In this document: positions 8,122 through 17,808 of the stretch, in pieces
Position numbering within the stretch: position 1 is the stretch's first letter
Layout of the letters: each line of letters starts with the position of its first letter
Source: a virus
DNA length: 59,464 bases
Direction: 5' to 3' (one strand)
IMG/VR virus record: IMGVR_UViG_3300010883_025974
Coordinates: 1 to 59,464 of that record
Position numbers and translations under genes: made by a program
The notes under the pieces: generated by a model
What the model was told of the DNA's origin: nothing
What the model saw: the letters and a program-made list of their open reading frames with translations, nothing else
Databases searched by the model: none

Positions 8122-9291
8122 ATGAGCACGTTTAGAAAACACAAATCCATCGCTGATAGATCTGCAACAGATCGTGCTAGGCACAAGCAAAAGATAGACA
8201 AAGCTCTTAAAGAGGGCATTCGCGATATCGTCGCCGAAGAATCTATTATCGGTCAAGATGGTAAGAAAAAAATTCGAATTCCCGTGAAGGGAATCAAAGA
8301 GTATCAATTTGTCTACGGGGATAATTCTAAGAAGGTTGGTTCGGCTCCTGGAAAAGATATTCACCGCGGTCAAAAGATCGCTGAGGATTCCGAAGATAAA
8401 AATTCAGGTGGTAAGCCAGGTGATAAGCCCGGCGAAGAGTTCTATGACGTTGAGATTACCCTAGAAGAGCTAGCCCAGTATTTGTTTAGCGATCTGGAGC
8501 TTCCAGATCTAGATAAAAAGAAGTTCAAGTTTCTATCAGCAGACACCTTTAAGAGAAAGGGTTTCCGGACTAAAGGAATACGGCCTCGCCTCTCGAAGAA
8601 AGAATCGATTAAGCAAAAGATTCGTCGCAAGAAGATGGCTGTTAAGGTTGGAACATTTAACGAAGAAGAGGATGAAAGATTTCCTTTTCACGATGCCGAT
8701 CTACGATATAAGCATTTCAAAGTGAAAGAGACAGAAATCTCTTCTGCCGCGATCTTTTTTATCATGGATATATCAGGCTCAATGAGCACAGCAAAGAAAT
8801 ACATTGCACGAAGCTTCTTCTTTCTATTGTATCAGTTTCTTCATCACAAGTATGACAATGTAGAAGTTGTATTTATCGCTCACACCACCGAGGCCAAAGA
8901 AGTCAATGAGAAGGATTTCTTCTCTTTAGCACCTTCCGGTGGAACTTTAATTTCTCCTGCTATTGACTTGACTCTAGATGTTATTGAGAAAAGATATCAT
9001 CCAAGTAACTGGAATATATACACTTTTCACTGTAGCGATGGAGATAACTGGTCTGAAGATGAAGAAAAAGCTTTAAAGTCATCACAGCAACTTAAGCAAA
9101 TATCACAGCTCTATGCATTCTGTGAAATCGATCCTGACTCAGAGTCTTCACAGTGGAGGCAGACTGATAATTCTAGAATGTATGACTTATACCAGGCGAT
9201 AATCGATAAGAAGTTTAAGTTAATTAGAATGACAAGCCCAAAAGAGATTTGGCCTGCTTTTAAGAAGCTTTTCGGCGGGAGGCTAGAGTAA
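8122..9291 (+). CDS. yeaH: DUF444 / YeaH family protein with von Willebrand A domain
   Basis: The 389-residue product matches the YeaH (DUF444) family. It has a basic N-terminus, the GGKPGDKPGEEFYDVEITLEEL region, the KKESIKQKIRRK segment, and a C-terminal von Willebrand A domain. The metal site (MIDAS) has DISGSMS at about 216-222, the GGT threonine near 275 and SDGDNW near 305-310. In bacteria YeaH is made together with the PrkA kinase (YeaG) and SpoVR (YcgB) under starvation, and is thought to act with the kinase. Here it is followed by SpoVR (overlap of one base) and PrkA. It is slightly shorter than the E. coli protein but looks intact. Confidence 0.88.
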   Translation: MSTFRKHKSIADRSATDRARHKQKIDKALKEGIRDIVAEESIIGQDGKKKIRIPVKGIKEYQFVYGDNSKKVGSAPGKDIHRGQKIAEDSEDKNSGGKPGDKPGEEFYDVEITLEELAQYLFSDLELPDLDKKKFKFLSADTFKRKGFRTKGIRPRLSKKESIKQKIRRKKMAVKVGTFNEEEDERFPFHDADLRYKHFKVKETEISSAAIFFIMDISGSMSTAKKYIARSFFFLLYQFLHHKYDNVEVVFIAHTTEAKEVNEKDFFSLAPSGGTLISPAIDLTLDVIEKRYHPSNWNIYTFHCSDGDNWSEDEEKALKSSQQLKQISQLYAFCEIDPDSESSQWRQTDNSRMYDLYQAIIDKKFKLIRMTSPKEIWPAFKKLFGGRLE

Positions 9292-10598
9292 TGGAATGGA
9301 CTTTTGAAGATTTGCAAGTCTGGGATGAGAAGATCGTCAAGCATGCTAAGTCTTATAATCTAGACTGGTATCCTATTGACTATGAAGTTTGTGATTATCA
9401 TGACATGATCGGATACATGTCATACATCGGCATGCCAACACACTATCAGCATTGGTCGTATGGCAAGTCCTTTGAGCGAACACACACCATGTATAACCTC
9501 GGCATGGAGGGGTTACCCTACGAGATGATCATCAATAGTGATCCATCGATTTCCTACCTCATGTCTGAAAATCCGATGCCGCTACAGATTCTGATCATGG
9601 CCCATTGCGTGGGACATTCAGATTTTTTTAAGAATAATCGAATGTTTAAGCACACAGATGCGCCGAACGTGATCAGTCGATTTCGAAATGGTGCTAAAAG
9701 GATCAAGAAGTATATTGATAATCCCAATATAGGCATTGATGCTGTTGAGAAAATTATTGATTCCTGTCATGCACTAAAGTATCATAATTATCGTGAGTTT
9801 GGAATCAATCGTCCTACACATAAAGAAGTCAAGCAGAAGTATATTGATCTTCTAAATTTCGATTCTAAGCTGGTTCCCGATTCTATCGATATAAATCGTA
9901 TTCCTATCGAGCCGGATTACGACATTTTAGCATTTATCGCAGAGCATTCTAGAAACCTAGAAGACTGGCAAAGAGACATCATTCATATAATTCGTGATGA
10001 ATCACGTTACTTTATGCCGCAGGCAATGACTAAAATTATGAATGAGGGGTGGGCATCTTTTTGGCATTATAAAATCATGTCAGAACTTGATCTCCCTCAA
10101 GAATTTCATCTAGCTTTTTTAAAAAGTCACAATCAGGTGCTTCGACCCACAGTCGGCCAGATCAACCCTTATCACCTAGGATTTACGATCTTTAAGTGGA
10201 TTCATGAAAACAAGGGCCTCGATGAGTGCTTTATCGCCAGGGAAGTTCATAATGATGAGTCCTTTATACGAACGTATCTTAATCGAGATATCTGTGAAGA
10301 GCTTAATCTCTTTTCGTATTCTAAAAAGAAAAAAGAATGGACAATAGATGATATCTCTGATGAAGATGGCTGGAAACAGATCCGGGAAGATCTGATTAAA
10401 AATGTAGGTCTTAACTCGATGCCAAATATTTATATTAAAGAGTTACAGAAAGATTTCACGCTCATTTTAGAGCATGAACATGACGGTAGAGATTTAGACT
10501 TAGACTATGCACATAATGTCTGTGAGCACATTATAGATTTATGGGGCGACGAGTTTAAACTATACACTGTTATTGAAGATGAGCCTTTCGAAATTTAA
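9291..10598 (+). CDS. spoVR: SpoVR / YcgB family protein
   Basis: This 435-residue protein is recognisable as SpoVR/YcgB. Family-typical stretches near the N-terminus include DWYPIDYEVCDYHDMIGYMS, GMPTHYQHWSYGKSFE and NPMPLQILIMAHCVGHSDFF. The middle has MNEGWASFWHYKIM and HNQVLRPTVGQINPYHLGF. The conserved His and acidic residues are kept. Family knowledge: SpoVR is needed for spore cortex formation in Bacillus, and its relatives are co-expressed with PrkA and YeaH; the biochemical role is unknown. The start codon overlaps the YeaH stop, indicating coupling. It lacks some C-terminal sequence compared with the roughly 510-residue E. coli YcgB. Confidence 0.9.
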   Translation: MEWTFEDLQVWDEKIVKHAKSYNLDWYPIDYEVCDYHDMIGYMSYIGMPTHYQHWSYGKSFERTHTMYNLGMEGLPYEMIINSDPSISYLMSENPMPLQILIMAHCVGHSDFFKNNRMFKHTDAPNVISRFRNGAKRIKKYIDNPNIGIDAVEKIIDSCHALKYHNYREFGINRPTHKEVKQKYIDLLNFDSKLVPDSIDINRIPIEPDYDILAFIAEHSRNLEDWQRDIIHIIRDESRYFMPQAMTKIMNEGWASFWHYKIMSELDLPQEFHLAFLKSHNQVLRPTVGQINPYHLGFTIFKWIHENKGLDECFIAREVHNDESFIRTYLNRDICEELNLFSYSKKKKEWTIDDISDEDGWKQIREDLIKNVGLNSMPNIYIKELQKDFTLILEHEHDGRDLDLDYAHNVCEHIIDLWGDEFKLYTVIEDEPFEI

Positions 10599-10645
10599 AC
10601 TCCTATTTACGATTAGCGTATTATTCCTAGCGTGGAGCAGAACGA

Positions 10646-12577
10646 ATGACAAGTTCAAAGTTCGCTGATCTAATCAGCAATCAAAGAAAAGAAAAGAAGG
10701 TAAAATATTTTAAGGGTACGTTCTTAGAATATCTTCATGAAGTTGAGACCAATCCAAAAATTGCTGAGCTAGCTCATCGTCGTCTTTACGATGCACTTGC
10801 TCGTCAGGGTACTGACACCTTGGATGAGAAAGATCCAAGATGCCGCCGTCTTTTTGATGGTGAAAAGCTAAAGCTCTACAAGTATTTCCAGCCTCACTTC
10901 TTCGGAATGGAAAGATCTCTTGCTAAAATCATGAGCTTTCTAAGCGCTGCTGCAATGAAGGGTGAAGAAAGCCGTCAGGTTCTACTGCTTCTCGGGCCAG
11001 TCGGCGCCGGAAAATCGGCGCTTATTGAGCACATTAAGCGTGCCCTTGAACAAGTTGATCACATCTATCACTTAGAGGGCTGTCCTATTCGTGAAGAACC
11101 TCTTCATCTTCTTCCTCGCTCTCTTCGTTCAAAATTTGAAGAATTGCTTGGTGCAAAGATTGAAGGTGATCTCTGCCCAGTATGTCGTCATCGTCTGTTA
11201 GAAGAATTTGATGGAAAATATGAAGATTTTCCAGTTAAGCAATCTTCTTTTTCAGTTCGCGGCAGAAGAGGAATCGGTGTTGTTCCGCCTGTTGATGCAA
11301 ATACGCAGGACACGTCAATACTAATAGGATCAGAGGACATTTCGAAGTTGGATCTGTATCCCGAGGATGATCCCAGAGTGCTTTCCTTGAACGGGGCCTT
11401 TAATGTCGGTAACAGAGGCATCGTTGAGTTCGTAGAGGTCTTTAAAAATGAGATCGAATTCCTCCATACTATGATTACAGCAACCCAGGAGAAGGCAGTT
11501 CCTTCACCGGGCAAAGGCGCGATGATCTACTTCGATGGGGTAATTCTTGCGCACTGTAATGAAGCGGAGTGGAACAGATTTAAATCCACGCATACAAACG
11601 AAGCTATCCTTGATCGAATTGTTAAAGTTAATGTTCCTTACTGCCTAGAACTTGACGAGGAAGTAAAGATTTACCAGAAGATGCTGGAGATGTCTGACTT
11701 CGATGCCCACATTGCACCGCACACCCTTGAGGTTGCATCGATGTTTGCTGTGATGTCTCGCCTTAAACCTTCTGGTAAGGTTGATCCCTTGGTTAAAATG
11801 AAGATCTATAACGGCGAGGACATCATCGAGAAGGGCCGCGTCAAGAAGGTTGATATTAAAGATCTTCGTGAGGAGTCCCGAGATGAAGGCATGACCGGTA
11901 TTTCAACACGCTTCATCACCAAAGCGATCGATTCAGCTCTAACAGATTCAGATAAAAATATGGTAACTCCCATCTCTGTAAGGAATTCCCTGATTAAACA
12001 GGTGAAGGATCAGATTATAGATGAAGAAGCTCGCGTGCGTTACCTTGAGTATCTCCAGAAAACACTGCATGAGGAATATCTGAGAATCCTAGAGAAGGAA
12101 ATTACAAAAGCCTTTGTTAGCGCTTATGAAGAGCAGGCTGAAACACTTTTTGATAATTACTTGGATCATGCTGAAGCCTATGTTAATAAGACGCGAGTTA
12201 AAGATAATATTACACGGGAAGAAATGGAACCTGATGAGAATTTCATGAAGTCTATTGAGGAAAATATAGGCATCATAGGATCGGCTCGTGACGGATTCCG
12301 GGCTGATGTTACTTCTTATATGTTTACGCTTTTGCGAGCCAAGAAGAAGATTGACTGGAAGGCATACGGACCCCTCAAGGAAGCCATCGAGAACAAATTA
12401 ATGGCGTCTGTGAAGGATATGTCTCGTATTGTTACAAAGTCTAAGTCAAGAGACAATAAGCAGCAAAAGAAATACGGCGGAATGCTCGCAACACTTATTG
12501 AAGACTATGGTTACAATGAAGATTCTGCAGAAGAAGTTATTAAGTTTGCTGCAAATAATCTTTGGCGAGATGGCTAG
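10646..12577 (+). CDS. prkA: PrkA / YeaG family serine protein kinase
   Basis: At 643 residues this is the usual length of PrkA. It shows the N-terminal YFKGTFLEYLHEVETNPKIA-type region, HFFGMERSLAKI, and a Walker A GPVGAGKS at 117-124. It also has CPVC near 177-180, a family-typical DTSILIGSEDISKLD near 226-240, an acidic Walker B-like YFDGVILAHCNEAEW near 293-307, and the C-terminal KYGGMLATLIEDYGY with EEVIKFAANNLW. PrkA couples an AAA+ ATPase core to a kinase-like C-terminal domain and drives a stress programme in bacteria. With YeaH and SpoVR upstream, the full trio is present. The ribosome site is GTGGAG. A 47-base gap separates it from SpoVR. Confidence 0.92.
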   Translation: MTSSKFADLISNQRKEKKVKYFKGTFLEYLHEVETNPKIAELAHRRLYDALARQGTDTLDEKDPRCRRLFDGEKLKLYKYFQPHFFGMERSLAKIMSFLSAAAMKGEESRQVLLLLGPVGAGKSALIEHIKRALEQVDHIYHLEGCPIREEPLHLLPRSLRSKFEELLGAKIEGDLCPVCRHRLLEEFDGKYEDFPVKQSSFSVRGRRGIGVVPPVDANTQDTSILIGSEDISKLDLYPEDDPRVLSLNGAFNVGNRGIVEFVEVFKNEIEFLHTMITATQEKAVPSPGKGAMIYFDGVILAHCNEAEWNRFKSTHTNEAILDRIVKVNVPYCLELDEEVKIYQKMLEMSDFDAHIAPHTLEVASMFAVMSRLKPSGKVDPLVKMKIYNGEDIIEKGRVKKVDIKDLREESRDEGMTGISTRFITKAIDSALTDSDKNMVTPISVRNSLIKQVKDQIIDEEARVRYLEYLQKTLHEEYLRILEKEITKAFVSAYEEQAETLFDNYLDHAEAYVNKTRVKDNITREEMEPDENFMKSIEENIGIIGSARDGFRADVTSYMFTLLRAKKKIDWKAYGPLKEAIENKLMASVKDMSRIVTKSKSRDNKQQKKYGGMLATLIEDYGYNEDSAEEVIKFAANNLWRDG

Positions 12578-12593: not shown

Positions 12594-13919
12594 ATGAGAT
12601 CTCGCGTAGAGAGTAAAGCACTAGCTTATAACCTCAAAGACTTCCTGGCAAATCTAGAAAAACTAATAAGAGTTCAGGAACAAGACTCTAAAGTAGCATT
12701 TTTAATGTCAAATGTTCCTAGAACTTCTAGTAGTCATTTTTTGTCTCTCATGTCATACAGACCGCAAAATAGAACAGAGAATATTTTTAAGCAAATAATA
12801 TTAGAATATATGCTTCAGGCAGAAAAGACATCTGCTTTGTCGTCCGGTATTATGATTAGAATGCTCATAGATCTTTGCAGAAGAAATGATAAGCTCAAGA
12901 GTATTCAAGAAAAAAAAGCTTCTATCCGATTAGAGGAAGAAGTGGAAAATATCTTAAGTGGCGTGCAAGAACTTATGAGCAGGCCCAATCTTCCAGTCTT
13001 AGAAAATTTTCTTCACAAGAATTTTCATACCTCAGTATCCTCACTGGTCTTGGAATCTTTGAAAATCGCAGGACCTGCTGGAAAAATAACATTTGATCAC
13101 AGTAATGTGCCGCAGCCAATAATCGAAGCAGACACTAGCTATGTATTCGACATAATACCTGACCAAAACCTTTTAATTCTTAACAATTTTGAGTGGAAAA
13201 AGTCTGATGTTTCGATCTTATGCATTGAAGGGTTTATCGAAAAAGTATCAGAGATAGATTCGATACTCACGACATTAGCAGAACAAAAAAAGTCAGCTGT
13301 CATTATTTGTTTAGGATACTCTGATGAGGTCATTTCTACTGTAATAGCTAATAATAGACGCGGAATTTTTGATGTGATGTTATGCAAGCCTGAAGAAGGT
13401 GCAAGCGCTATGAACGATCTTTTTGACATAGCAGCAGCCTCAGGTTCTTGTTTTTATGGATTTCAAACCGGGACTGTGTCGATTGCTTTTAAAGCATCAG
13501 ATCTAGAGCGAGCAAGTGAGGAAGTTGTGATTTCTAGTGATAAGCTAAGAATCAAAAACTCTTTTTCTCAAAGGGCTGCTAATGATCGCGCCCAAAAAAT
13601 TAAAAAACAGCTAGGGGAAAGTGACCTCAAGGATGATTATCTAAAAAGAAGAATAACATCCTTGACATCTAATCATGTAAAGATTATTTTACCAGAGAGC
13701 ACAGCCCAGGATAAATTTAGTCAAATTGAAGCAATAGATTCTGCTCTAAGGTGCTCTAATGCTATTACAAGATACGGTGTCATCGATGTCCCTAAAGATA
13801 GCATTATTCCCTGTGAGGGACGCCAGATAGCATCTTCGATTTACATCGGATGCAAATTTGGTTATGAATTATTTAAGAAAATATCTTCTATTAGTCACGC
13901 GATAGTGCTAGAAGATTAA
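12594..13919 (+). CDS. degenerate GroEL-like chaperonin lacking the ATP-site motif
   Basis: Read against the GroEL family from memory, several blocks align in order. Residues 61-97 fall where GroEL has GDGTTTATVLAQAII. Residues 152-170 (VLESLKIAGPAGKITFDHS) match the intermediate-domain ..VGKEGVITVEDG region. Residues 206-270 match the apical region (SILCIEGFIEKVSEIDSIL, then IANNRRGIFDVMLCKPEEG, where GroEL has [20 protein letters not shown]). Residues 311-327 (ASDLERASEEVVISSDK), 342-377 (RAQKIKKQLGESDLKDDYLK..) and 390-407 match the return to the equatorial domain. The GDGTTT nucleotide motif is replaced by SALSSG and the later GGG loop is lost. At 441 residues it is about 100 shorter than GroEL. 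It is probably a non-hydrolysing chaperonin relative acting as a decoy, adaptor or scaffold. It follows PrkA by 16 bases. Confidence 0.62.
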   Translation: MRSRVESKALAYNLKDFLANLEKLIRVQEQDSKVAFLMSNVPRTSSSHFLSLMSYRPQNRTENIFKQIILEYMLQAEKTSALSSGIMIRMLIDLCRRNDKLKSIQEKKASIRLEEEVENILSGVQELMSRPNLPVLENFLHKNFHTSVSSLVLESLKIAGPAGKITFDHSNVPQPIIEADTSYVFDIIPDQNLLILNNFEWKKSDVSILCIEGFIEKVSEIDSILTTLAEQKKSAVIICLGYSDEVISTVIANNRRGIFDVMLCKPEEGASAMNDLFDIAAASGSCFYGFQTGTVSIAFKASDLERASEEVVISSDKLRIKNSFSQRAANDRAQKIKKQLGESDLKDDYLKRRITSLTSNHVKIILPESTAQDKFSQIEAIDSALRCSNAITRYGVIDVPKDSIIPCEGRQIASSIYIGCKFGYELFKKISSISHAIVLED

Positions 13920-14927: not shown

Positions 14928-15641
14928 ATGACCAGAGTAAGTAAGCTTCTGAATGAAGATATATGGGATACAGTTTGCGATGATCATTCGTGTGGTGATT
15001 TTAGAGTAGAGATAAAGCCCGAAATAAGAAAAGCCCTTTTGCGCATTGCGTATGATTTTTTAAATTTCCTAGACGTAAAAATATCATTCAGTGATATTAC
15101 ACTTACAGGTTCTATGGCAAACTACAATTACACAGATCAAAGTGACCTAGATCTTCATGTTCTTTTTAATTTTAATTCACTACCTCCGGGAGAGGTCGCG
15201 ATGATAAAGGATCTTTTTAGTGCGCGCCGGCGCATCTGGAATGATGAGCATGATATAAAGATCAAAGATCACGACGTTGAACTCTACACACAAGATATTG
15301 ATGAGCCCCACCATTCTACAGGAGTTTTCTCTGTTTTAAGAAATAAGTGGCTTGTGAACCCTCTCAGAACCAATCCTGTGATTGACGAGGAAACAATACT
15401 TAAGAAGTCCCAAGATATGATGAACAGGATCGAATACCTAGAGGCAATCGAAGATAAGACAGATTCCCTGAAGCGCCTGAAAGACAAGATCATGAAAATG
15501 AGAAAAACAGGCCTTGAGAGAGAGGGTGAGTTTGCCGAAGAAAATTTAGTCTTTAAGGCCCTGAGGAACTCAGGATACATCGGAAAGTTAAACGACGTCA
15601 TACGTAATGAATATGATCGTTCTGTATCGCTACATCAATAA
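14928..15641 (+). CDS. nucleotidyltransferase-fold protein (237 aa)
   Basis: The active-site signature of the pol-beta-like nucleotidyltransferase superfamily is clear. GSMANYNYTDQSDLDLHVLF at about residues 64-83 (G-S, then D-x-D) is followed by a third acidic residue in DVELYTQD near 121-128. Such proteins add nucleotides to RNA, proteins or small molecules; some are toxins or tRNA-modifying enzymes. The C-terminal part is helical and charged. The N-terminus (MTRVSKLLNEDIWD) is again a short amphipathic piece. It precedes the histone-like gene and the tmRNA. The target is unknown. Confidence 0.7.
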   Translation: MTRVSKLLNEDIWDTVCDDHSCGDFRVEIKPEIRKALLRIAYDFLNFLDVKISFSDITLTGSMANYNYTDQSDLDLHVLFNFNSLPPGEVAMIKDLFSARRRIWNDEHDIKIKDHDVELYTQDIDEPHHSTGVFSVLRNKWLVNPLRTNPVIDEETILKKSQDMMNRIEYLEAIEDKTDSLKRLKDKIMKMRKTGLEREGEFAEENLVFKALRNSGYIGKLNDVIRNEYDRSVSLHQ

Positions 15642-15663: not shown

Positions 15664-15846
15664 ATGAGCAAAATACTTGACAAATGGGAAGAGCTAAAGG
15701 TTCTAGTTGAAAGTTTAGAACTCGACGTTCACAAGAATGCTCGAGGTAACAAGAGTGCGGGAACTCGAGCACGCAAGGGATTGCGCCTTCTCAAGAATGC
15801 AGCGGGAGAGCTTGTTAAGACTTCTCTAGACGTGGGTAAGGATTAA
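15664..15846 (+). CDS. histone H1-like (Hc1-type) small basic protein
   Basis: I start the gene at the ATG 15664, with AAGGAAG about 8 bases upstream; a longer upstream in-frame start at 15607 would lie inside the previous gene and lacks a ribosome site. The 60-residue product matches the bacterial histone H1-like Hc1 pattern: MSKILDKWEELKVLVESLE, then HKNARGNKSAGTRARKGLRL, then LKNAAGELVK. GNKSAGTRARKGL is the diagnostic part. Hc1 proteins bind and compact DNA. Its stop lies only 7 bases before the tmRNA. Confidence 0.65.
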   Translation: MSKILDKWEELKVLVESLELDVHKNARGNKSAGTRARKGLRLLKNAAGELVKTSLDVGKD

Positions 15847-15853: not shown

Positions 15854-16200
15854 GGGGCCGATCGGTATCGACGTGACTGGATGTCTAGGAGATGCAAGTC
15901 CCAGAGGTGCCTGGCTGGGTTAACAAGGCACAAAATAATAATCGCAAACGACGATTTTAATCAAATAGCACTCGCAGCTTAAAAACCTGTAGATGCTTGA
16001 GGTGGCAGCAACCAATAAACAGAAAGTTGCATTTGAGATAAAAAATGGCTCCCTGGTAACAGGTGGGTTTCCAAGACCACATAGGAAACGGGAAAATTTG
16101 TGGATATTTTGCTAGCTCAAGAAAGAACTAGATAAACTTGTGAATGAATCCCTATGATTGAAGATTACGGACGCGGGTTCGATTCCCGCCGGCTCCACCA
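15854..16200 (+). ncRNA. ssrA: transfer-messenger RNA (tmRNA)
   Basis: The 347-base gene begins GGGGCCGATCGGTATCGACG and ends with the T-arm GCGGG-TTCGATT-CCCGC and CGGCTCC plus encoded ACCA. The 5' GGGGCCG pairs with 3' CGGCTCC (one G-U) as the acceptor stem. Pseudoknot 1 is visible just before the tag: CCCAG (15900-15904) pairs with CTGGG (15915-15919), and GTGCCT (15907-15912) with AGGCAC (15926-15931). The tag frame starts at GCA 15944. tmRNA rescues stalled ribosomes, gives the truncated protein an AlaAla degradation tag and releases the mRNA. It sits between a histone-like gene and a convergent sigma-like gene. Confidence 0.93.
15944..15982 (+). other. tmRNA tag reading frame (ANDDFNQIALAA, stop TAA)
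   Basis: This is the 12-codon frame inside the tmRNA, from the GCA resume codon to TAA. It begins AND like most proteobacterial tags and ends in the hydrophobic ALAA that ClpXP and related proteases recognise. The intact frame, correct spacing from pseudoknot 1 and intact end suggest a working tag rather than a decayed copy. Confidence 0.88.
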
Positions 16201-16213
16201 GCAATTGCTAGAT

Positions 16214-16235
16214 GTAAGTAGAAGTTACTGCTTAC
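16214..16235. terminator. hairpin between convergent tmRNA and sigma-like gene
   Basis: GTAAGTAG (16214-16221) pairs with CTGCTTAC (16228-16235), eight pairs including one G-U, around a 6-base loop. It lies just after the tmRNA and covers the stop codon of the minus-strand gene. A palindrome AGCAATTGCT (16200-16209) also follows the tmRNA end. There is no T run on the plus strand, so it may be a weak bidirectional terminator or an RNA-stabilising end. Confidence 0.4.
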
Positions 16236-16474
16236 TCAGGAAGGGAAGATCTAAGTTTGCCTAGAATACTTTTCTCTATCTGGCAGATTCTCATTCTTGT
16301 TAAATTGAATACTTCTCCAATTTCTTGGAGGGTTTTCGGGCCTTCTTTAGCACTGATTAGAACACAGTTTAGGCCACTTTCACAATTGATCCAATTCTTA
16401 CACGCCTTTTTCTTGCAAGGGACATTTTTGATAGCGTGTGCATCAAAACATGTCTGGTCTAAAAAATTACTCAT
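16232..16474 (-). CDS. sigma-70 region 4-like helix-turn-helix protein with Cys cluster (80 aa)
   Basis: The C-terminal half (about residues 43-78) reads GPKTLQEIGEVFNLTRMRIC followed by QIEKSILGKLRSSL. This is the region-4 helix-turn-helix of sigma-70 factors, which contacts the -35 box (compare TLEEVG..F.VTRERIRQIE..AL.KLR in RpoD). The N-terminal half is cysteine-rich (CFDAHAIKNVPCKKKACKNW, then CESGLNC), suggesting metal binding. No region 2 is present. It could redirect host RNA polymerase, act as an anti-sigma mimic, or be a stand-alone regulator. It is on the opposite strand to its neighbours, converging on the tmRNA and diverging from PhoH with a 20-base gap. Confidence 0.72.
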   Translation of the reverse strand: MSNFLDQTCFDAHAIKNVPCKKKACKNWINCESGLNCVLISAKEGPKTLQEIGEVFNLTRMRICQIEKSILGKLRSSLPE

Positions 16475-16494: not shown

Positions 16495-17808
16495 GTGAAA
16501 AAGACTTTTATCCTTGACACCAATGTTCTGCTCTACGATGCAGATTGCCTACTATCCTTTGATGATAATAATATAATCATTCCACTAATTGTTTTAGAAG
16601 AACTAGACGAACACAAGCGCAGGCCTGATGAAGTAGGCAAAAATGCCCGTCGATCAGTAAGAATGTTAGATAAGTTCAGAGAGAAAGGATCACTTGACAA
16701 AGGGATTCAATTAGATAACGGTGGCACGCTAACTATTCTAGGCAGTGACAAGATAACATCCCCGTTCCCGCAAGACTTAGATATGTCAACAGTTGACAAT
16801 ATGATTCTGGCAATGTCTAAGCACCTCCAGGCGGCGCGAAAAGAAAAAGTAGTCTTAGTCACTAAGGATATTAATGTCAGAGTTAAGTGTGACGCGCTAG
16901 GCATTAATTGTGAGGATTTTAATAAGCACAGAATAATCGACAAGTCTGAGGGGCTCTATTCGGGTGTAAGAAGAGCTGACGTTTCTCAAGAGCTTATTGA
17001 TGAAATTTACTTGAAAAAAGAAATACCTCTCCCTCGTGATATTTTAGTAGACAAGGTCTATCCAAATGAGTTTTTAGTCCTAAAGGACCAGACGTCAGGA
17101 CAAGGCTCAGCAATAGTTCGATACATTAAAAGTCAAGATGTTCTTCGACTCATACCTGAAATCAAAAACTCATGGGGGCTAATACCGAGGAATAAAGAGC
17201 AAAAGTTTTCATTTGACATCTTGTTCGATGATGATATTAAGCTTGTTACCCTAGTGGGAAAAGCAGGAACTGGAAAAACACTGTTGGCAGCAGCTGCTGC
17301 TCTTGAACAATCTTTTTCCAAGAATGCTAAGTATAAAAAGGTTGTAATATCACGCCCGATTCAAACTGTGGGAAAAGATATTGGATATCTTCCGGGCGAC
17401 ATTTACGATAAAATGGCACCCTGGATTGCACCAATCAGGGATAATCTCCGATACCTTTTTGGGGATGACAAAGATACGCTGGACATGTACGTAGAAAGCG
17501 GCAAGATAGAAATCGAAGCTATAACTTATATTAGAGGCCGATCCATATCTGATGCTATCATTATTATCGATGAAGCACAAAACCTGACAACACATGAGCT
17601 TAAGACGATTATTACGCGCGTTGGTGAAAATACGAAGATAATTCTAACAGGTGATATCGACCAGATTGACAACACTTACCTTGATTCCACTTCAAACGGC
17701 TTAAGCTACACAGTTGAGAAATTTAAAGATTACGATATCTCTGCGCACGTGACTCTACTTAAGGGCGAAAGGTCAGAATTGGCTACCCTCGGTGCAGAAA
17801 TCTTATAA
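16495..17808 (+). CDS. phoH: PIN domain-PhoH ATPase fusion
   Basis: The GTG start follows an ACCGGAGACAA ribosome site. Residues 1-150 form a PIN nuclease domain (FILDTNVLLYD with Asp8, a Glu near 36, DNMILAM with Asp near 101, TKDINVRVK with Asp near 125). Residues about 230-437 are a PhoH ATPase (VGKAGTGKT at 254-262, VISRPIQTVGKDIGYLPG, Walker B AIIIIDEAQN, and LTGDIDQID). This is the PhoH2/YlaK arrangement, which in bacteria acts as a helicase-coupled RNase. Many phages carry PhoH alone; the intact PIN part points to RNA turnover. It heads the rightward run toward the glycan cluster. Confidence 0.9.
   Translation: MKKTFILDTNVLLYDADCLLSFDDNNIIIPLIVLEELDEHKRRPDEVGKNARRSVRMLDKFREKGSLDKGIQLDNGGTLTILGSDKITSPFPQDLDMSTVDNMILAMSKHLQAARKEKVVLVTKDINVRVKCDALGINCEDFNKHRIIDKSEGLYSGVRRADVSQELIDEIYLKKEIPLPRDILVDKVYPNEFLVLKDQTSGQGSAIVRYIKSQDVLRLIPEIKNSWGLIPRNKEQKFSFDILFDDDIKLVTLVGKAGTGKTLLAAAAALEQSFSKNAKYKKVVISRPIQTVGKDIGYLPGDIYDKMAPWIAPIRDNLRYLFGDDKDTLDMYVESGKIEIEAITYIRGRSISDAIIIIDEAQNLTTHELKTIITRVGENTKIILTGDIDQIDNTYLDSTSNGLSYTVEKFKDYDISAHVTLLKGERSELATLGAEIL

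Follow-up and report, generated by a model that had tools for sequence, protein, structure and literature searches.

A complete one-piece tmRNA gene beside a PIN-PhoH gene in a marine myovirus fragment and its relatives

Introduction

tmRNA releases stuck ribosomes and labels the incomplete proteins for destruction. How widely is it carried by phages? Phage tmRNAs reported in 2014 came from the mycobacteriophages Bxz1, Cali, Catera, Wildcat, and others, as well as from Bacillus phage G (PMC4131195); tmRNAs of huge phages followed in 2020 (PMC7162821), and by 2022 they were known from 402 of 18,146 phage genomes (PMC9004378). That literature offers proposals on how a phage might profit from carrying a ribosome-rescue RNA, but we found no experiment in it.

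Here, we describe a tmRNA encoded on a metagenome-derived fragment, an IMG/VR virus contig of 59,464 bases (hereafter the window, meaning the whole stretch of DNA analyzed). It shares with the bacterial one-piece tmRNA (RF00023) a tRNA-like domain containing the G3-U pair, the CCA end, pseudoknots 1 and 2 (PK1 and PK2), the U and A before the GCA resume codon, a tag that starts with AND and ends in a hydrophobic residue followed by AA, and the UAA stop. It differs in being phage-borne with smpB unfound, in its apparently weak helix 5, and in that its clade (clade 1) has no recognized promoter or terminator of its own. The tmRNAs of Bxz1, Cali, Catera, Wildcat, phage G, and the huge phages are likewise complete and lie in large phage genomes, but the tag and the lineage of the window's tmRNA differ from theirs, and SmpB, which is reported among huge phages, was not found in the window's group. 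Closer in setting is the marine methylophage Melnitz, likewise a marine myophage with its own ssrA and no integrase found (PMC9004378); its tmRNA, however, is two-piece and permuted, with a glutamine riboswitch, whereas the window's is one-piece.

A Complete One-Piece tmRNA

ARAGORN and Infernal with RF00023 place a one-piece tmRNA (ssrA) of 347 nt at identical coordinates, 15854–16200 on the plus strand, and ARAGORN finds no other tRNA-like gene in the window. The RF00023 match spans the whole model (positions 1–374, untruncated) and scores 122.2 bits against a gathering threshold of 47 (E = 2.7e-47). A sequence-only reading of the window had proposed a complete phage-encoded tmRNA with its own tag at this place, naming an acceptor stem, T-arm, encoded CCA, PK1, and an uninterrupted tag frame; all of these are found, and the core is intact. 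The parts of the gene are as follows.

15854–15860 (+): acceptor stem, 5′ strand GGGGCCG; gene positions 1–7 pair with 337–343 and include G3 of the G3-U alanine identity pair
15894–15899 (+): inner part of helix 2, 5′ strand; partner at 16136–16141, 100% paired
15900–15931 (+): PK1, CCCAG/CUGGG and GUGCC/GGCAC; two-sided changes at 7 of 10 pairs
15939–15943 (+): UAAUC element before the resume codon (UAGUC in E. coli); the equivalents of U85 and A86 are kept
15944–15982 (+): tag reading frame GCA...UAA, ANDDFNQIALAA and stop, from ARAGORN and the alignment
16001–16030 (+): PK2 (gene positions 148–177), GGU/ACC and GCAGC/GUUGC, with covarying pairs
16067–16103 (+): probable third pseudoknot (gene positions 214–250), GUUUCC/GGAAAC and CCACA/UGUGG, seen by eye and common to the window and contig L015 only
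16173–16189 (+): T-arm, GCGGGUUCGAUUCCCGC, five pairs, from pairing and alignment
16190–16200 (+): acceptor stem, 3′ strand, and encoded ACCA end, from sequence and pairing

The acceptor stem has seven pairs (GGGGCCG/CGGCUCC), G3-U among them. The helix 5 region, at the end of the tag frame, fits RF00023 poorly, and a three-pair stem is all that is visible there by eye; helix 5 looks reduced or absent.

Neighboring Genes and Relatives

Three genes flank the tmRNA.

15664–15846 (+): Hc1 histone-like gene (Pfam Hc1, 2.5e-12), given in the 60-aa form of its relatives; the longest ORF starts at 15607
16232–16474 (−): gene for a small sigma-70 region 4 protein, in convergent orientation to the tmRNA (Pfam Sigma70_r4, 5.1e-10, and synteny)
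16495–17808 (+): PIN-PhoH protein gene, downstream (Pfam PIN_4 and PhoH); a neighbor shared by the tmRNAs of two phage clades

The sigma-70 region 4 protein (80 aa) consists of that region alone and is conserved in clade 1 and in contigs L009–L011; a transcript of its gene could run antisense to the tmRNA. Farther downstream, a lengthy series of genes (17860–46183) separates PhoH from the baseplate genes and includes glycosyltransferases (two ORFs tested).

The virus is an unclassified marine myovirus, of which the window covers a fragment. That the tmRNA is phage-encoded, as the sequence-only reading had claimed, is borne out by the virus record itself, by the window's baseplate genes, by the terminase, portal, and major head (capsid) protein genes of a 235-kb relative (G005), by the intact gene kept in relatives, and by the adjoining PIN-PhoH gene. 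The first 20 kb of G005 (L070; G005:1–20000) have a G+C of 53%, against 40–49% in the remaining contig; this part may have been acquired, or the contig end may be chimeric. G005 also encodes a phosphoenolpyruvate synthase (L080:7740–10229).

How far does this arrangement extend? With the PIN-PhoH protein as query, we recovered 15 virus loci. A tmRNA sits at the same position in five sister contigs (L002, L003, L004, L007, and L015), and the three compared gene by gene (L002, L004, and L015) all run from the Hc1-like gene through the tmRNA and the convergent sigma-70 region 4 gene to PhoH. The exact tag pattern had no match in IMG/VR, and blastn of the window's tmRNA against 50,697 phage records had none either; further relatives came from looser tag patterns, which brought in eight more contigs (G010–G017, clade 2). 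Their PhoH proteins are 51–53% identical to the window's, and their tmRNA lies directly upstream of PhoH; because these contigs were found via their tag, the frequency of carriage among them is uninformative. In a tree of 56 one-piece tmRNAs—a small sample, and a kind of tree that is weak—clades 1 and 2 fall together with support of 0.97, apart from the sampled bacterial and other virus-contig sequences. The tmRNA is maintained over two phage clades.

Not every relative carries it. Contigs L009–L011 keep the Hc1, sigma-70 region 4, and PhoH genes without a tmRNA, which makes the tmRNA dispensable. In L009, the tmRNA position is a 326-base gap (L009:9331–9656) with a small repeat-containing ORF and no hidden tmRNA; the tmRNA and the ORF thus substitute for each other in an otherwise similar cassette. 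The adjoining PIN-PhoH gene, to which the sequence-only reading had drawn attention, is a genuine syntenic neighbor in two clades, but PhoH cassettes without a tmRNA occur as well. Contig L005 has a different tmRNA (tag ANTDTYSEYALAA) elsewhere on the contig, which groups with other virus-contig tmRNAs.

Fold and Tag Are Kept Among Relatives

Across 11 distinct phage tmRNAs, the 36 named pairs of the acceptor stem, T-arm, helix 2, and the two pseudoknots are formed in 99.2% of cells, a figure mildly biased toward pairing by a structure drawn from the window sequence. Changes on both sides, which come from the other rows, are found at 17 of the 36 pairs, in the acceptor stem, T-arm, PK1, and PK2. 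For example, acceptor pairs 5–7 swap CCG/CGG for GUA/UAC, and the PK1 and PK2 stems are rewritten among relatives, while G3-U is invariant (11/11). When partners were slid as a control, pairing fell to 36–46% and covariation dropped from 0.48 to below 0.1.

The tag frame comprises 12 codons and a stop (GCA AAC GAC GAU UUU AAU CAA AUA GCA CUC GCA GCU UAA). The upstream U and A, the GCA resume codon, and the open tag frame are kept in all 15 aligned sequences; A86 is an essential base upstream of the resume codon (PMC2481249). The encoded tags are ANDDFNQIALAA in the window, ANDDFNQIAIAA in L015, ANDDFDIYAIAA in L004 and L007, and ANDDFNMEMAA in L002, L003, and clade 2. Their endings differ within the virus group (IALAA, IAIAA, YAIAA, and MEMAA), with L, I, or M as the third residue from the end, and among the ANDDFNMEMAA forms, the tag differences are synonymous only. 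The tag frame and its stop are held open, in a pattern that the aligned sequences mark as purifying constraint. The RNA-side requirements for trans-translation are all present.

Are such tag endings unusual? A scan of IMG/VR for the conserved tmRNA 3′ end yielded at least 120 stretches, in which ARAGORN recognized at least 100 tmRNAs, at least 37 of them one-piece. Among the matches listed, some of which may be prophage or host DNA, tags end in LAA (70), MAA (8), VAA (8), and IAA (4). MAA and IAA endings thus account for 12 of 100 virus-contig tmRNAs among the matches listed, and we rejected the idea that they are a peculiarity of this group.

Does the tag point to the lineage of the host, as had been suggested from the sequence alone? 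The patterns used gave no bacterial match to the window's tag, and tags differ within the same virus group. A first tag pattern found nothing in 84,980 species genomes. A second found 24 stretches in the same set; of the 18 checked with ARAGORN, a tmRNA with an ANDDFN start was present only in Vibrio tetraodonis, and the remaining six are all from a single Endozoicomonas genome, in which such matches recur many times. Both patterns fix the codons and the stop, so that other codings would escape them. The Vibrio tetraodonis tmRNA (L052; tag ANDDFNGSVRLAA) has the same first six tag residues as the window's, but it is a host gene beside smpB and groups with gammaproteobacterial tmRNAs, not with these phages. 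Against 369 gammaproteobacterial genomes, the best blast matches of the window's tmRNA span its last ~36 bases only (the conserved T-arm and CCA) and therefore allow no lineage call. The tag is unusable as a host marker here.

Expression and Proposed Function

Clade 1 and clade 2 differ in how their tmRNAs are set into the genome. In clade 1, the tmRNA starts 6–14 bases after the Hc1-like gene (7 nt in the window), and no promoter or terminator placed to serve it was recognized, either at the window locus (consensus scan) or elsewhere in the clade. Read-through from upstream followed by processing is therefore the likely route, with the Hc1 gene as a possible transcription partner. In clade 2, by contrast, the tmRNA of G012 is a self-contained unit: a sigma-70-like TTGACA-17-TATAGT ends 11 bases upstream of it, and an intrinsic terminator (a GC-rich hairpin and T run) begins at the last base of the CCA. 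In the further clade-2 flanks that were inspected, motifs resembling both can be seen.

We consider it very probable, judging from these sequence features, that 15854–16200 is a functional phage ssrA gene for an ordinary tmRNA that uses host partners. Ten contigs, which include the 235 kb of G005 and may be fragments, gave no match to SmpB (PF01668); host SmpB is thus presumably used. The window's tmRNA would probably be co-transcribed with the upstream Hc1-like gene, and host nucleases would then trim its 5′ and 3′ ends. In trans-translation as described (PMC8012679 and PMC2481249), host AlaRS would charge it with alanine via the G3-U pair, and host SmpB and EF-Tu would bring it to ribosomes stalled on broken mRNA. 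Translation would then move to the GCA resume codon, append ANDDFNQIALAA, and end at UAA, releasing the ribosome and leaving a tagged fragment for host Clp-type proteases to degrade. The benefit to the phage would be that ribosomes and amino acids recirculate while mRNAs are cut. Help of this kind during host mRNA degradation, as the sequence-only reading supposed, is plausible, and the imposing of a phage tag, which it also proposed, is hypothetical; a related role, the maintenance of hijacked machinery, has been proposed for the Melnitz tmRNA (PMC9004378).

Could the tmRNA belong to a protein-quality-control kit of this virus group, with MAA and IAA tag ends adapted to a protease complex in which a phage ClpP-like subunit takes part? 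G005 encodes a ClpB-like disaggregase (L079:16562–19168), a full GroEL (L080:1938–3533), and a ClpP-like protein, and clade-2 G012 has both the tmRNA and a ClpP-like gene. The ClpP-like proteins (L077:15888–16490 and L230:1438–2040) occur in two tmRNA-bearing phage clades. They keep the catalytic Ser and His, but the Asp has apparently become Asn (Ser-His-Asn), and their activity is therefore uncertain. The ClpB-like protein was dropped as a partner for ClpP: its best fit is to ClpB (below the model cut-off), and no ClpP-docking IGF/IGL loop is seen in its D2 domain. A role of the phage ClpP as prohead protease was likewise set aside, as its gene adjoins ribonucleotide reductase rather than head genes. 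The GroEL, ClpB-like, and ClpP-like genes of G005, together with the DUF444, SpoVR, and PrkA genes of the window, suggest a protein-quality-rich virus group, to which a link of the tmRNA is hypothetical; we regard such a tuned kit as unlikely.

Two further observations concern the window. At 8122–12577, adjoining DUF444 (YeaH-like), SpoVR, and PrkA genes form a bacterial stress operon within a phage; the best annotated-phage matches of PrkA are in Thermus phages (~34% identity). A 441-aa protein encoded at 12594–13919 matches GroEL weakly and in its middle only (~145–410), with no recognized equatorial ATPase part.

In another reading, the phage RNA is a competitor whose main effect would be to titrate SmpB or to displace the tmRNA of the host; trans-translation in the host would then be weakened, or its tag would give way to one that proteases read differently. 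Precedent comes from the tagless tmRNA-like domain of mycobacteriophage DS6A, discussed as a possible tmRNA inhibitor that perhaps titrates SmpB (PMC4131195), and the varying third-from-end tag residue and the unfound phage SmpB would both fit. A pure decoy, however, has no need of an open, constrained tag frame and stop, and the MAA and IAA endings also occur among other virus-contig tmRNAs; we give this reading little chance. It is very improbable that the gene is an attachment-site remnant, a host ssrA captured by an integrating element and without a role of its own. ssrA is indeed a common site of prophage integration (PMC9004378 and PMC12656738), but no tyrosine integrase (PF00589) was found in five contigs, 235 kb from the closest large relative included, and the tmRNA is full length, syntenic in sister contigs, and covarying across deep divergence. 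In clade 2, moreover, the tmRNA stands alone between a promoter and a terminator of its own, which speaks for maintenance by the phages rather than chance capture. Host contamination or misassembly, which the metagenomic origin of the window might suggest, has a negligible probability given the same neighbors in contigs of other metagenome records, no smpB next door, and no matching tmRNA found in the bacterial genomes searched.

Significance

The window's tmRNA, taken as a functional gene that works through host partners, is sound but ordinary: a few percent of phages are already known to have such a gene, and on its own it leaves that picture unchanged. Together with its relatives, it extends the known phage tmRNAs by a well-supported and deeply diverged lineage that has been kept beside PIN-PhoH in two phage clades. 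The group also supplies matched sets—contigs with and without the tmRNA, and tags with L, I, or M near the end—with which to probe what a phage gains from ribosome rescue of its own.
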